Source: Deltaproteobacteria bacterium
GTDB taxonomy: Bacteria; Myxococcota; SpSt-1050
Direction of reading: 5' to 3'
Assembly: GCA_026416535.1 (NCBI GenBank)
Contig: JAOAFA010000028.1
Coordinates: forward strand, 1 to 38,455
Length of the DNA stretch: 38,455 nucleotides
Shown here: positions 4,693 through 14,801 of the stretch, piece by piece
Numbering within the stretch: position 1 is the stretch's first letter
How the letters are laid out: every line of letters starts with the position of its first letter
Translations under genes and position numbers: made by a program
Notes under the pieces: model-generated
What the model was told of the DNA's origin: nothing
Database searches by the model: none
What the model saw: the letters and a program-made list of their open reading frames with translations, nothing else

Positions 4693-9759
<5,067 letters not shown>

Positions 9760-10052
9760 TTATACTTCCTCCTACTCATATAGTATCCTTTGTTTATATA
9801 ATAATTATTAGCATAAGTAAAGGGTGTTTAGTTGTTTAAAAATAGGTCTAGTTATCTGATCTCTCTGGTAATTTTCTAACTGGTGGTTGTTTATGACCTG
9901 TTTTTTACTTTGATAATTTTTTGCTATCTCTGTTCTGATGCTGAAGTTTCTTAGTGATTTGTATGTTCTTTTATGCATGTTTTAATCAGTTAGCTAATGA
10001 CCTTTTAAACAAGTTTTTTAAGAAAACAAACATGTTATAATCATACTCCTAG
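9760..10052. other. dnaA-dnaN intergenic region, AT-rich
   Basis: This is a very AT-rich spacer of 293 bases, long for a dnaA-dnaN junction. It contains the dnaN promoter and a block of A/T between about 9780 and 9840. An inverted repeat ACTCCTA/TAGGAGT (10045-10051 and 10062-10068) spans the dnaA stop codon; it lacks a T-run on the dnaA transcript side, so it is not a convincing terminator for dnaA. The spacer is a secondary candidate for origin function because some bacteria have oriC between dnaA and dnaN, but I see no cluster of canonical DnaA boxes. Confidence 0.4.
9793..9821 (-). promoter_or_regulatory. Sigma70-type promoter for dnaN
   Basis: On the minus strand TTTACT (9821-9816) is separated by 17 bases from TATAAA (9798-9793). 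The predicted start would leave a leader of about 25-30 bases with AGGAGG before the dnaN ATG. Read by eye only. Confidence 0.5.
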
Positions 10053-11384
10053 TCATAGTGATAGGAGTTTTTGTTCAAGTGTTCCTATTACTTCTCTTAC
10101 TGAGCTATCCTCTTTTATGGTATTTTCAATCTTTTTTATAGAGAAGAGAACTACACTATGGTTGCTTTTCTTAAATTTAAAACTGATTTCGGAGAGGGAT
10201 AAGTTTAGATGCTTTCTTATTAGGTATATTGATATGTGTCTTGCGATAGATATGTTTTTACTCTTTTTCTCCGACAGTATATCCTCCTTACTAAGACCGT
10301 AGAAGTCTGCGACTGTTTCTATTATTTTATCTGGGGTGATCCTGTTCTTCTCTACTCTGAAGAAGTCCTTGAGGGACTCCTTAACTAGGGCGATGTCTAT
10401 CTCATGCTTGGTTAGGTTAGAGAATGCCTCTATGTGGTTTAGTGCACTTTCTAACTCTCTCACATTTGACTTGATGTTTGTTGCAATGAAGTCAATTATT
10501 TCATCAGTGAGTCTTAGACCAAGCAATTTTGATTTAAACTTTAATATTTCCCTTCTTATTGATAATTCGGGTGCCCTTATTTCGCATGTTAGACCCCATG
10601 TAATCCTTGATAGAAGCTTTTCATCTAAATTCTCTATCTTTGATGGATGGACATTTGAGACGATGACAATCTGTCTCTTTTTCTCAAGTAAGTAGTTCAC
10701 TATGTTAAATAGCTCTTCCTGAGTAGCCTCCTTTTTTCCGCCGATAAATTGTATGTCATCTAGTAAGAGTATTTCACAATTCTTTCTAAATTTCTCTCTG
10801 AATCGCAGCATGTCATCGTTCTTCGTAGAGTAGACAAACTCGTTCATTAGTTGTTCGGATGATATGTATATGAGGTTTCCGTGGTATCTTGCAAACCAGA
10901 GGTGTCCTATGGCGTTTAGTAGGTGGGTTTTTCCAAGGCCTGATTTACCATATATTACGAGTGGATTGTATTTTTGAGCAGGTTTTTCGGCCACTGTTCT
11001 TGAGGCATAGTATGCAAGTTCGTTCGAACTACCTACTACAAATCTTTCAAATGTGTATTTTGGATTGAGTAGTGGATGAGAATTCTTTATTGGCTCCGGG
11101 TTGTTTTCTGTGTACTTCGGATTATCCTTTTCGTCTTTTTCTATTATTACAATAGATGGTGTAGAAGACGTGCCCATAACCTTGGCCACCTCTTCGAGGA
11201 GAGGTTTTGAAAAATTGTTGATAAAAAACTCCTTGAAAAATCTATTCGGGACTGAGACCTCAATGGTATTGTCTTTCATGGATACAAATTCAAGTCTTCT
11301 ATACCACACCTCAAAGGTGGTAGGATTTATCCTTTCCTTTAAGTTGCTGATCGCCTTTTCGAAGATGTGGATGCCTGTGTCCAT
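10053..11384 (-). CDS. dnaA: Chromosomal replication initiator DnaA
   Basis: This 443-residue AAA+ initiator melts oriC and loads helicase. The frame reaches 11543, but the ATG at 11384 begins the conserved N-terminal domain (KERINPTTFEVWYRRLEF), and a good promoter lies at 11425-11453, inside the longer frame. Domain III has Walker A YGKSGLGKTH, Walker B LLLDDIQFIGGK and the sensor region SRITWGLTCEI. Domain IV is present, but its signature reads KSNHSVV (Asn408-His409-Ser410-Val411) where most DnaA proteins have RDHTTV, so contacts to the DnaA box may differ. dnaN and gyrB follow. Confidence 0.97.
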   Translation of the reverse strand: MDTGIHIFEKAISNLKERINPTTFEVWYRRLEFVSMKDNTIEVSVPNRFFKEFFINNFSKPLLEEVAKVMGTSSTPSIVIIEKDEKDNPKYTENNPEPIKNSHPLLNPKYTFERFVVGSSNELAYYASRTVAEKPAQKYNPLVIYGKSGLGKTHLLNAIGHLWFARYHGNLIYISSEQLMNEFVYSTKNDDMLRFREKFRKNCEILLLDDIQFIGGKKEATQEELFNIVNYLLEKKRQIVIVSNVHPSKIENLDEKLLSRITWGLTCEIRAPELSIRREILKFKSKLLGLRLTDEIIDFIATNIKSNVRELESALNHIEAFSNLTKHEIDIALVKESLKDFFRVEKNRITPDKIIETVADFYGLSKEDILSEKKSKNISIARHISIYLIRKHLNLSLSEISFKFKKSNHSVVLFSIKKIENTIKEDSSVREVIGTLEQKLLSL

Positions 11385-11895
11385 AATTGTGTTCCCGCGA
11401 GATAATTTTGGTTGCGGAGATAAGTTTATATTTACTTCCAATAGATAAGTCAAATGTTTTTTGAGCTTTTTATAATTGTAACGGAGAGGCAATGAAGGAG
11501 AGATCCCAAAAACAAGGGAAGTACTCCCACTACTTTTAACCATAAAGCTGTGGTAGAATAGATCGTAGATGAGGATATGGGTGAGTGTCCATAGGTTATT
11601 ATCTGTTGTTAGATGTATACAAAGGGTTCGTTTTATGATCGGGGAGATCTCTTTTGAACTGAGATTTTACCGTTCTGTGCAATGTATACTGTAAAAACAC
11701 TAAATGAAGCTTTTTTATGAACGCGTACAAAAAGGAGACATAGTTTAGGTGTAAACGGAAGTGCGATAATGGGTGAGCCAAATATTTACTTGTGGATGAA
11801 ATGTTTTTTGATCTTAAGGTGAGGAGTAGGAGCTCAATTTGGGTCTATGTAGGATGGGAGTGAAAATTTTATACAAAATCTTACTAATTCCAATT
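11385..11895. other. Non-coding region upstream of dnaA; possible part of the origin
   Basis: No supported gene occurs here. The interval holds the dnaA promoter and a strongly G-over-C stretch on the plus strand (hand count for 11581-11880 about 78 G to 32 C). The only near-consensus DnaA box I find is TGTGGATGA at 11791-11799 (one mismatch to TGTGGATAA); TGTGGTAGA at 11549 and TGTTGTTAG at 11604 are weaker. One 60-codon frame at 11599-11781 has no recognisable features and is probably chance. Confidence 0.45.
11425..11453 (-). promoter_or_regulatory. Sigma70-type promoter for dnaA
   Basis: On the minus strand TTGACT (11453-11448), a 17-base spacer and TATAAA (11430-11425) form a near-consensus promoter. 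It predicts a leader of roughly 34 bases to the ATG at 11384 and supports that start over longer upstream options. Confidence 0.6.
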
Positions 11896-13437
11896 TTAGT
11901 TTGATAATAGGATTGCCCCATGGTAGGTTTCTAATGTAATACCTGCTTTTAAATCTCCTACAGGGGCGTTTTCCGGAGTTTTAAAGTTTTCGTGATTGAG
12001 TATTCTCACCTTAGGTCCTTTCTCAATCTTGAGTGTCTTCTCCTCCTTATATGGGTTCACAGCTACGAATCCCTTTTCGAACTCTCTATACCAAATGCCA
12101 TTTTCTGTCCTTATTGCCGAGCCTTTGGGTTTTCCTAGATTTAAAAGTTTTGGATCATATTCTTCAAACCAATATTGGTCTCTAAATTCCCATAGACTAA
12201 ACAGAAAATAGGCATTTGGTTTATCAGGGTTGTATGCGAGCAGATAACTACTCATCGAAAACCAAAGCCATTGCCATCCTGTTCTTCCTTCGTAGATTCT
12301 ATCCATTCTCTGTAGTCCTTCATTAGGGGCGGGACCAGAGTTGTTGGGACTAGCTGCACCGGGGGGCATATTGACAGATAAGATTGTATAATTATCTGCA
12401 CTCTGCATGGTTTTGACTCTCTTTTCCCATTGGTCAACAGGTAGCACTTTCCAGCACAGAAATCCACATTCCTCCATTACAAGGATCTTAAGGTCCTCGT
12501 AGAGCGCTATTTGTGAGTCGTAGTAGATAACCCATGAGTTTAGTCCTAAGTGGACGCCTTTGGAATAAAAATAATCAACGGCCTTTCTAAGAAACTCATC
12601 GTAGTGTTTTTGCCATAAATCATTTCTATACTTTTGGGTAGATGTGTCATAGTATGCATCAGGATGATCTATCTCAGTGCTGATCCATGTCCAAGTAGAC
12701 TCATCAAAGCTTGACTCGGGCCTCCAGTTGTTTTGCCAACTAACACCGTATTGCATTCCATCTAAAAAGATCCCATCAGCCCATCTTCCATCAAATCCTC
12801 CAAATGGCTCACCCCAAATTCGTTTATAGTTGTATTCAATCCAGTATTGTTGCCAGTTTTTATTACCTAATATCATAGCCCTTTCCACTGGATATGGGAC
12901 ACTCCTTAGATATTCTTTTGTCTTTACACCAACAGCTATCCATCTGTCAAAATTATCTTTTCCGTGATTCTCTTTTATCCATTCCCAGTCTTCTTGTGAC
13001 CATTTGTCATATTTACTTACTATATATTGCCCCGGTCCCATGCGATATAAGTAAATTTTGATTTTAGGATTTATCCTTTTTAACTCTTCAAAGGCGTTGA
13101 GATTTCTATTCTCTCTTACCTCACACCACCTTGTGGTTGAAAAATTGTCGGGACCTGTTTCAAAGAGATCGAACTTCCCTGCAACAGATAAAGGGAAGCA
13201 GTCATCTGGATAAGTTGGACCAAATCTACCATATAAAACAAGTGCTGAATAAACAAAAGTATTGTGGCGCTCGCCTAAGCCAGCATCATAATCTAGAATA
13301 GCATCACTTGTACTACCATCCCTATTGAATATGATATCACTTTGTTCGTCTCCAAGGTTCTCTTGATCACATTGGCAACAAAAAAAGTTAAACACTGAAC
13401 CAAATATGACAATAAAACCCAATATTAACGACTTCAT
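11896..13437 (-). CDS. Exported glycoside-hydrolase-like protein (TIM-barrel type, possibly GHL15)
   Basis: The 513-residue product has an N-terminal hydrophobic export signal (about residues 3-20) followed by a Cys-rich CCQC that might be lipid-modified, although the lipobox is poor. The core looks like a (beta/alpha)8 carbohydrate-active fold: strands such as KIKIYLYRMGPGQY, a likely acidic strand end in RWADGIFLDGMQYG, LGLNSWVIYYD and MEECGFLCWK, many Trp/Tyr residues, and a small C-terminal beta domain. It resembles hypothetical glycosyl hydrolase family 15-like proteins (GHL15), from memory of the motif style only; the substrate is unknown. No Shine-Dalgarno precedes the ATG. It stands alone between dnaA and a long non-coding stretch. 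Confidence 0.7.
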   Translation of the reverse strand: MKSLILGFIVIFGSVFNFFCCQCDQENLGDEQSDIIFNRDGSTSDAILDYDAGLGERHNTFVYSALVLYGRFGPTYPDDCFPLSVAGKFDLFETGPDNFSTTRWCEVRENRNLNAFEELKRINPKIKIYLYRMGPGQYIVSKYDKWSQEDWEWIKENHGKDNFDRWIAVGVKTKEYLRSVPYPVERAMILGNKNWQQYWIEYNYKRIWGEPFGGFDGRWADGIFLDGMQYGVSWQNNWRPESSFDESTWTWISTEIDHPDAYYDTSTQKYRNDLWQKHYDEFLRKAVDYFYSKGVHLGLNSWVIYYDSQIALYEDLKILVMEECGFLCWKVLPVDQWEKRVKTMQSADNYTILSVNMPPGAASPNNSGPAPNEGLQRMDRIYEGRTGWQWLWFSMSSYLLAYNPDKPNAYFLFSLWEFRDQYWFEEYDPKLLNLGKPKGSAIRTENGIWYREFEKGFVAVNPYKEEKTLKIEKGPKVRILNHENFKTPENAPVGDLKAGITLETYHGAILLSN

Positions 13438-14311
13438 ATTACATATGTAGTAGAGAAATTTTCGACCATTGTCAAGTGACCATTATCAAATAAATGTACA
13501 ACACAAGTGCCGAATAGATAAAAGGTCTCTCTTCCGATAACCCCACGTCGTCGATAGGAGTGGCATCATTTAGGCTAATTAATATAGTACCCTAAAAAAC
13601 TCTTCTTCGCTTCCAAGATCTATCCATATGCATACATAGATTACCGCATACTTGATCCTTTCTATCTCCTCATCCTTGATACTCATATGGGCTATCATGC
13701 TAATGGCAAATTAAAATATGCAGCAGATGGTTAGTAATTAGTGGAAGATTTTTACACTGATTGAAAAACTACACGGCAATATCAAATCTATTTTAGTAGC
13801 AATCAGCTCGAATTTACTATAATGATACGAGATTTGAACTAAGATTATGTTACAAAGATCAATGGTAGTTTGGGAGAGAGTTACACAATTGAAAAATTAG
13901 GTTTCTTATTGTGGCTATTTATCAGTGGGAATAGGTTTAGAGGGTAATTTATGTATTATAGTTATAAGGGTCTTAAAACTTCTGTAAATTGTAAATGGTA
14001 GATCGGGTTATGCTTTAAAGTTATGGAGCAAACAGAAGTGGTAGTTGGGAGACATGTACAATAGATGTTGAAAGTTATGTTGGTGAATGTAAATCTGTAG
14101 TGTGTATTACGAGTGGAAGGATAAGAGAATTTTACAAAATAGAAAAGGTACCTCATTTATAGGTTAGATAGAGATGTTAGAAGGTTAAAAGGTATTGTCT
14201 GATGAAGTTGTCTTCAAACCTCTTTATACAACACGTGTGATCTTATTTTAAAAGATGTAATATACGTATTGTATCCTCTAACCATCCATGGGCAAGAATT
14301 TGATAAGAAAA
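13438..14311. other. Long non-coding interval with a switch in G/C strand bias; candidate replication origin
   Basis: These 874 bases hold no convincing gene; the one 64-codon minus-strand frame (13962-14156) lacks family features and a ribosome site. Hand counts on the plus strand give about 12 G to 31 C for 13561-13680, but about 64 G to 15 C for 13861-14100, so the bias flips near 13.70-13.86 kb. Genes to the left (through dnaA-gyrB) run leftward and the main block to the right runs rightward, as expected around an origin. Three similar direct motifs, TGGTAG-N1-2-T-(N)-GGG, occur at 13863, 13996 and 14039. Canonical DnaA boxes are not evident. Confidence 0.45.
13447..13475 (-). promoter_or_regulatory. 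Possible promoter for the glycoside-hydrolase-like gene
   Basis: On the minus strand TTGACA (13475-13470), 17 bases, then TACTAC (13452-13447). Transcription would begin within a few bases of the ATG at 13437, and no ribosome-binding site is visible, so the mRNA may be leaderless. Confidence 0.35.
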
Positions 14312-14384
14312 TGACCCCACCGGGAGTCGAACCCGGGTTTTAGCCGTGAGAGGGCTACGTCCTAGACCACTAGACGATGGGGCC
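14312..14384 (-). tRNA. tRNA-Glu (CTC anticodon)
   Basis: The minus strand folds as a standard 73-nt cloverleaf: acceptor GGCCCCA/TGGGGTC with discriminator A, D-arm GTC...GAC, anticodon arm TAGCC-CTCTCAC-GGCTA with anticodon CTC, and T-arm CCGGG-TTCGACT-CCCGG. CCA is not encoded; a short T-run follows. It lies five bases after tRNA-Gln and is probably processed from the same transcript. Confidence 0.93.
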
Positions 14385-14801
14385 ATGGTTGGCTGGGAGA
14401 CTAGGATTCGAACCTAGATAGACGGATCCAGAGTCCGTCGTCCTGCCGTTAGACGATCGCCCAGTCTCTTCCCTTGGAATTATAAAAATTCGGGTTTCTC
14501 GTTTATACTCGTATATATTTATTCCCTCCCACTTTGAAGAGGGATTGTTATTTTTGATATGTATAGCTCTTAGATCTGACCTCACGATTATCTTTTTAAA
14601 TTCATAGTTTTGGCTTGCCCCTGTAAGCTTCTTGTAATACTTTATTGTATCTGTATAATTTTTGGGGCTTTTGTATCTACATCTCTCAATCTTCGTGGAA
14701 CCCTCTGGTAGAGGAGCAATATTGCAGTCGTCTTTTTCTCCATAGGCAACGTCAATGAGAAATAAACACGCTATAATTGTATGTGCAACTCTATAAACCA
14801 T
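14370..14801 (-). CDS. Small exported protein whose frame runs through tRNA-Gln
   Basis: The 143-codon frame begins with a signal peptide (about residues 1-21, ending VAYG). The mature part has two Cys (Cys26 and Cys41) that could form a disulfide and a compact domain to about residue 110 (ending EYKRETRIFIIPRE). From there the frame reads the tRNA-Gln gene in phase and finds a stop only in the tRNA-Glu D-arm, so the last ~30 residues are translated tRNA. I do not recognise the domain, though the KNNNPSSKWEGINIYEY segment looks conserved in style. No Shine-Dalgarno precedes the ATG; the sequence there is CTCCTCCTT instead. The true end of the functional protein is uncertain. Confidence 0.6.
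   Translation of the reverse strand: MVYRVAHTIIACLFLIDVAYGEKDDCNIAPLPEGSTKIERCRYKSPKNYTDTIKYYKKLTGASQNYEFKKIIVRSDLRAIHIKNNNPSSKWEGINIYEYKRETRIFIIPREETGRSSNGRTTDSGSVYLGSNPSLPANHGPIV
14390..14463 (-). tRNA. tRNA-Gln (CTG anticodon)
   Basis: A 74-nt minus-strand cloverleaf including an encoded CCA end. The anticodon arm is ACGGA-CTCTGGA-TCCGT with anticodon CTG, the T-arm is CTAGG-TTCGAAT-CCTAG, and the D-arm GTCTAACGGCAGGAC is typical of Gln. The acceptor stem TGGGCGA/TCTCCCA contains one C-T opposition (fifth pair). It overlaps the 3' part of the preceding protein-coding frame. Confidence 0.9.

Follow-up and report, generated by a model that had tools for sequence, protein, structure and literature searches.

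The analyzed window corresponds to contig C16 in full (38,455 bp). The contig comes from a metagenome-assembled genome of 2.96 Mb, here G000, and carries dnaA, dnaN, and gyrB, all oriented leftwards (Table 1). The dnaA gene is the only copy in the whole genome. Its reading frame is open to 11543, and the start of DnaA in the sister genome (L032:5001) is the Met equivalent to the ATG at 11384, hence the length of 443 residues. Domain I, the AAA+ domain III, and the helix-turn-helix of domain IV are all present in one protein (PF11638, PF00308, PF08299, TIGR00362), which scores 440 bits with TIGR00362 (cut-off 344) and 77 bits with PF08299; bacterial DnaA family models are thus matched well above the cut-off despite a variant domain IV signature. 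The closest PDB match to an AlphaFold2 model of this DnaA (mean pLDDT 90) is 8btg, the B. subtilis complex of the basal unwinding system (BUS), and the modeled fold is intact. Just upstream of dnaA lies a 513-aa ORF (11896–13437, minus strand) without a Pfam match and with GC3 skew near zero; tandem tRNA-Glu(CTC) and tRNA-Gln(CTG) genes are found at 14311–14463 (minus strand).

Table 1. Features of the dnaA region; positions refer to the window.
Feature	Position	Strand	Remarks
gyrB	6191..8638	-	TIGR01059
dnaN (beta clamp)	8647..9759	-	TIGR00663
dnaA-dnaN intergenic region, proposed oriC	9760..10052	-	TAAACA cluster, sister footprint, GC3-skew switch
Further WWWTAAACA site, ATATAAACA	9791..9799	-	at the end of the trios
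Eight DnaA-trio-like triplets, TTA CTT ATG CTA ATA ATT ATT ATA	9797..9820	-	NAN on the opposite strand
Proposed DnaA box 2, AACTAAACA	9825..9833	-	co-oriented, 1 bp overlap with box 1
Proposed DnaA box 1, TTTTAAACA	9833..9841	-	upstream box of the tandem pair; sister equivalent ATTTAAACA
Further TAAACA site, TCATAAACA	9888..9896	-	
Further site, TTTTAAACA	10003..10011	+	opposite orientation, distal cluster
dnaA	10053..11384	-	443 aa; ATG at 11384
SNHSVV, start of the recognition helix of domain IV	10149..10166	-	residues 407–412 from the ATG; E. coli RDHTTV 432–437
Lys codon, equivalent to E. coli minor-groove Arg399	10263..10265	-	alignment
Only near-canonical box, TCATCCACA	11791..11799	-	one mismatch to TTATCCACA

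The genomes compared included the sister genome (a metagenome-assembled genome recorded as 'Bdellovibrio sp. isolate Tomsk_43_40', of the same genus as G000), one order-level relative, G002 (n = 1 for the order), and the phylum relatives G024 and G036. DnaA of G000, the sister, and G002 was aligned with B. subtilis (8btg), T. maritima (2z4r), and other relatives, which made 59 further rows (about 50 distinct DnaAs). The case is built on two genomes, both metagenome-assembled and both of one genus.

SNHSVV stands where the alignment with B. subtilis, T. maritima, and the relatives gives K/R-D-H-S/T-S/T-V. The sequence-only reading had pointed to this motif, and both the coordinates and the alignment bear out its numbering of Asn408, Ser410, and Val411; in the AlphaFold2 model the recognition helix begins at His409, after the turn 404–408. 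A second change in domain IV, absent from that reading, is Lys in place of Arg399. The protein is hence a DnaA that has neither the typical (R/K)DHTTV-type signature nor Arg399, and the family models require neither. In E. coli, the major-groove contacts to the 3' part of the box, TnCACA, come from the helix 434–451, TTA is read by Arg399 in the minor groove, and both R399A and T435M are defective (PMC5742627). The sister DnaA (76% identical) has SNHSVI and also Lys at the Arg399 position, and G002 has KDHSTV and Arg. Arg399 is kept in all 59 other rows, among which the only exceptions to the motif are RSHPVV of T. maritima and RNHSTV of G036 (D433N only). The earlier suggestion to see whether the substitutions are conserved in the clade thus has a graded answer: they are present in the sister, and not in the order or the phylum. 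Most simply, the change in domain IV would be derived in this genus or family. At the positions of B. subtilis E183 and N187, known to hold the trio adenine (PMC10721633), the alignment shows no variation, hence the single-strand (trio) side of DnaA looks unchanged.

In G036, a genome of 0.5 Mb from the phylum of G000, DnaA reads NRNHSTV, with D433N alone, and dnaA is apart from dnaN. This genome was considered as an independent test of the motif/box change and set aside, as its dnaA does not adjoin dnaN and no box cluster was found.

Exact TTWTNCACA does not occur within 1.4–1.5 kb on either side of dnaA, and there is no cluster of canonical TTWTNCACA boxes near the gene. The sole match to TTATCCACA with at most one mismatch in these flanks is TCATCCACA, which has no counterpart in the upstream dnaA flank of the sister; the scan agrees with the initial claim of few canonical boxes and one near-consensus box at 11791. 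As several GC-rich relatives with canonical DnaA likewise show no canonical boxes in 1.5 kb flanks, their absence alone is weak evidence for a box change. The informative part is the substitutions together with what replaces the canonical boxes.

The hexamer TAAACA is present in the dnaA-dnaN gap in five copies per 293 bp in G000 and in four copies per 266 bp in the sister, with 0.33 and 0.25 copies, respectively, expected from noncoding DNA. TAAACA was first spotted by eye, and the choice of the word is covered by a blind test, in which it ranks first among all 6-mers by joint enrichment in both gaps; the fraction of random noncoding window pairs scoring as high is 0.0007 (0.07%; the null is made of 42 and 19 noncoding segments). 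In each genome, the gap is the densest TAAACA/WWWTAAACA cluster of about 300 kb sampled, with no other 250-bp stretch equal to it, and the other gaps have no TAAACA. The over-represented word near dnaA that the sequence-only reading had proposed to look for in sister genomes is, therefore, TAAACA, in both genomes, which supports its suggestion of a diverged DnaA box alongside the changed motif. No relative combining these substitutions with ordinary boxes, the finding that would have spoken against it, was encountered.

The entire sister genome has a single copy of TTTAAACANNNAAACA, located in the dnaA-dnaN gap. G000 has two extra sites, one in coding sequence on contig C70 and one noncoding on C114. 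The former is taken as chance. The latter is a double box, TTTAAACAATTAAACA (locus L077, C114:6995–7010), beside a UvrD/PcrA-like helicase gene, and is one of only two TTTAAACAANNAAACA sites in the G000 genome; it is possibly an extra DnaA-binding locus.

Two of the TAAACA sites form, with the adjacent triplets, a compact layout: the two boxes point the same way and share 1 bp, and 4 bp further on a run of eight DnaA-trio-like triplets begins. Read in the dnaA sense, it is TTTTAAACA-ACTAAACA-CCCT-TTA CTT ATG CTA ATA ATT ATT ATA in G000 and ATTTAAACA-AACAAACA-TACT-TTA CTT ATA CTA ATC TTT ATT ATA in the sister. In both genomes the trio run starts 12 bp after box 1 and has eight triplets in the same register. 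The upstream box of each tandem is the better one (TTTTAAACA then AACTAAACA in G000, ATTTAAACA then AAACAAACA in the sister). Exactly this box-trio block comes out as the top ungapped match over 48 bp when the two gaps are compared (39/48; null maximum 31/48), and of gaps simulated with a Markov model, 0.3% (G000) and 5% (sister) contain a run this long. A box at 0–16 bp from at least three NAN trios, the BUS criterion, is found in both genomes with WWWTAAACA as the box, and is not found with TTATCCACA at up to two mismatches. A point against the proposal is that most of the trios depart from 3'-GAT-5', with G as the first base in just two of eight.

The phylum relative G024, with canonical DnaA, has TTATCCACA-TATGCACA-GCCC-ATT ATT ATT... 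in its own dnaA-dnaN gap, i.e., the same 8-bp box offset and 12-bp spacer as G000, but the ordinary boxes TTATCCACA/ATATGCACA. Across about 890 kb of loci, a core-open pattern (NNNTNNACA, a second ACA 8 bp on, 4 bp, and six NTN) has no more than three distinct matches, at the proposed origins of G000, the sister, and G024; other box-trio geometries give on average 0.2 matches in the same loci.

On the plus strand, GC3 skew goes from −0.36 in dnaN to +0.17 in dnaA of G000, and from −0.23 to +0.14 in the sister. As the skew flips though the two genes are co-oriented, the direction of replication appears to change between them, and the best reading is that the dnaA-dnaN gap is oriC. The upstream gaps 11544–11895 and 13438–14311 were rejected as the origin, having no TAAACA; their only canonical-like box-trio match is TTATACAAA with four triplets, in the gap 11544–11895. 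The cryptic origin anticipated by the sequence-only reading is cryptic to a TTATCCACA search, but its place and layout are ordinary: the dnaA-dnaN gap, with tandem boxes and trios.

What is directly seen is the substitutions, the cluster of boxes and its geometry, which the sister conserves, and the switch in skew. The best reading is that DnaA specificity and the boxes co-diverged, notably by C to A at the otherwise constant box position 6, with the trio side still ordinary. DnaA appears to have been re-specified from TTATCCACA to roughly TTTTAAACA, with the neighboring origin carrying the new word in the standard layout. Judged by sequence comparison, we put at roughly four in five the probability that the double-strand recognition domain of DnaA in this lineage was re-specified together with the origin at the dnaA-dnaN gap, with WWWTAAACA as the cognate box. 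It is rather likely, if a little less so, that this is a natural re-specified initiator–origin pair, in which the R399/D433 readout has been lost, the boxes have become nnnTAAACA with loss of C at position 6, and the AAA+/trio half has stayed ancestral.

In such a system, DnaA would anchor on the tandem TTTTAAACA/AACTAAACA pair at 9825–9841, helped by the distal TAAACA sites, and would extend over the eight trios (9797–9820) by polymerizing through its AAA+ domain, which is ordinary; the AT-rich stretch would then open, as in the basal unwinding system of B. subtilis. On this reading, TAAACA would be what DnaA binds, the substitutions would be the cause of the box change, and unwinding would start in this region. 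The looser 5' part of the box would fit the loss of Arg399, and the change of C6 the altered start of the helix.

An unlikely alternative is that the conserved block is the dnaN promoter in an AT-rich gap, with TAAACA belonging to another DNA-binding protein and the origin lying elsewhere. The block does contain TTTACT-17 bp-TATAAA/TATATT with the 17-bp spacing conserved, and a promoter scan flags TTTACT-TATATT in the sister; however, promoter-like matches are not above shuffles (0 vs. 2.0 expected in G000, 2 vs. 2.5 in the sister), and a dnaN promoter accounts neither for the distal TAAACA sites nor for the skew switch, nor for a box offset of 8 bp that recurs in G024 with its canonical boxes. 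A promoter and an origin can also coexist in this gap, and a dnaN promoter may overlap the box-trio block.

It is very unlikely that the changes in domain IV are neutral drift, degenerate canonical-like boxes still being used and TAAACA reflecting A/T composition bias. Low-affinity boxes are bound by DnaA in many species, the gap is AT-rich, and the best shared 6-mer reaches only p of about 0.07 against plain shuffles, probably due to A-runs that dominate the shuffles; the comparison with real noncoding DNA was run after this test. On the other hand, TAAACA itself is enriched both over dinucleotide shuffles and over real noncoding DNA, the gap has no canonical box, even at up to two mismatches, adjoining a run of at least four triplets, and, apart from these substitutions, the positions concerned, R399 among them, hardly vary or do not vary at all in the alignment. 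That the chromosome origin lies elsewhere (in the 13.4–14.3 kb gap or off the contig), possibly independent of DnaA boxes, is highly improbable: the cumulative G-C curve has its absolute minimum at about 13.6 kb, not at 9.8 kb, and is nearly flat from 9.76 kb onward, but the 13.4–14.3 kb gap has neither TAAACA nor a box-trio match, and right-arm skew is already seen in dnaA of both genomes, which puts the switch between dnaN and dnaA.

The DnaA box is regarded as close to universal, and TTATCCACA is the default setting of origin-finding programs. If true, the co-divergence of DnaA and its box in this genus would be a second strongly diverged DnaA–box pair, nested among canonical relatives, and evidence that DnaA can change its specificity by a traceable route while keeping box spacing and trio register. 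It would allow testing directly which base is read by which DnaA residue, and would give a reason for origin finders to infer the box from the architecture. The pair should also be orthogonal to ordinary DnaA/oriC if the reading is true, hence a possible orthogonal origin for synthetic replicons. Within the literature searched, DnaA is not paired in any paper with TTTTAAACA, TTTAAACA, or whole-word TAAACA.

Among the known systems, T. maritima, with the box ACCTACCAC/AAACCTACCACC (PMC10316083, PMC6669920), is similar in having a non-canonical box and a substituted helix start (SHPVV, with D433 lost and T436V); unlike G000, it has a different box and keeps Arg399, and the lineage of G000 sits among relatives whose DnaA is canonical. 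On reading the sequence, no ACCTACCAC repeats caught the eye. The box of Epsilonproteobacteria, TCATTCACA with the core TTCAC, is also lineage-specific and linked to changes in helix 5 (PMC5043019, PMC6052347), and in C. jejuni twin boxes overlapping by 1 bp are followed by about 5 bp (PMC6052347), a geometry like that of G000; however, in Epsilonproteobacteria D433-H434 and R399 are unchanged, as is C at box position 6. Compared with the E. coli box TTATCCACA, positions 4, 7, 8, and 9 (T, A, C, and A) are kept in the new box, while C6 is replaced by A, position 5 is A throughout, and positions 1–3 are mostly A/T; unlike in E. coli, the proposed origin of G000 adjoins dnaA. According to a 2015 review, boxes differ from TTATCCACA by at most two bases except in T. 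maritima, and all the 9-mer boxes there have C at position 6 (PMC4285127). A point against the main reading comes from a clostridial metagenome-assembled genome with canonical DnaA (L033:6475), where a predicted BUS box TTTTCAACA has A at position 6; this box precedes a second box, CCCC, and eight NTN triplets.

There is a close likeness to the BUS, where the boxes are tandem and co-oriented, the upstream box is the better match, spacer length has its peak at 10–13 bp, and the trios have a central A (PMC8287927). With the BUS of B. subtilis oriC (PMC6669920, PMC8287927, PMC10721633) the proposed G000 origin shares the dnaA-dnaN gap, the tandem boxes, the spacer, and the central-A trios; it differs in that the boxes are WWWTAAACA, not TTATCCACA, and in the small share of trios beginning with G. 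The case is a variant of a known system.
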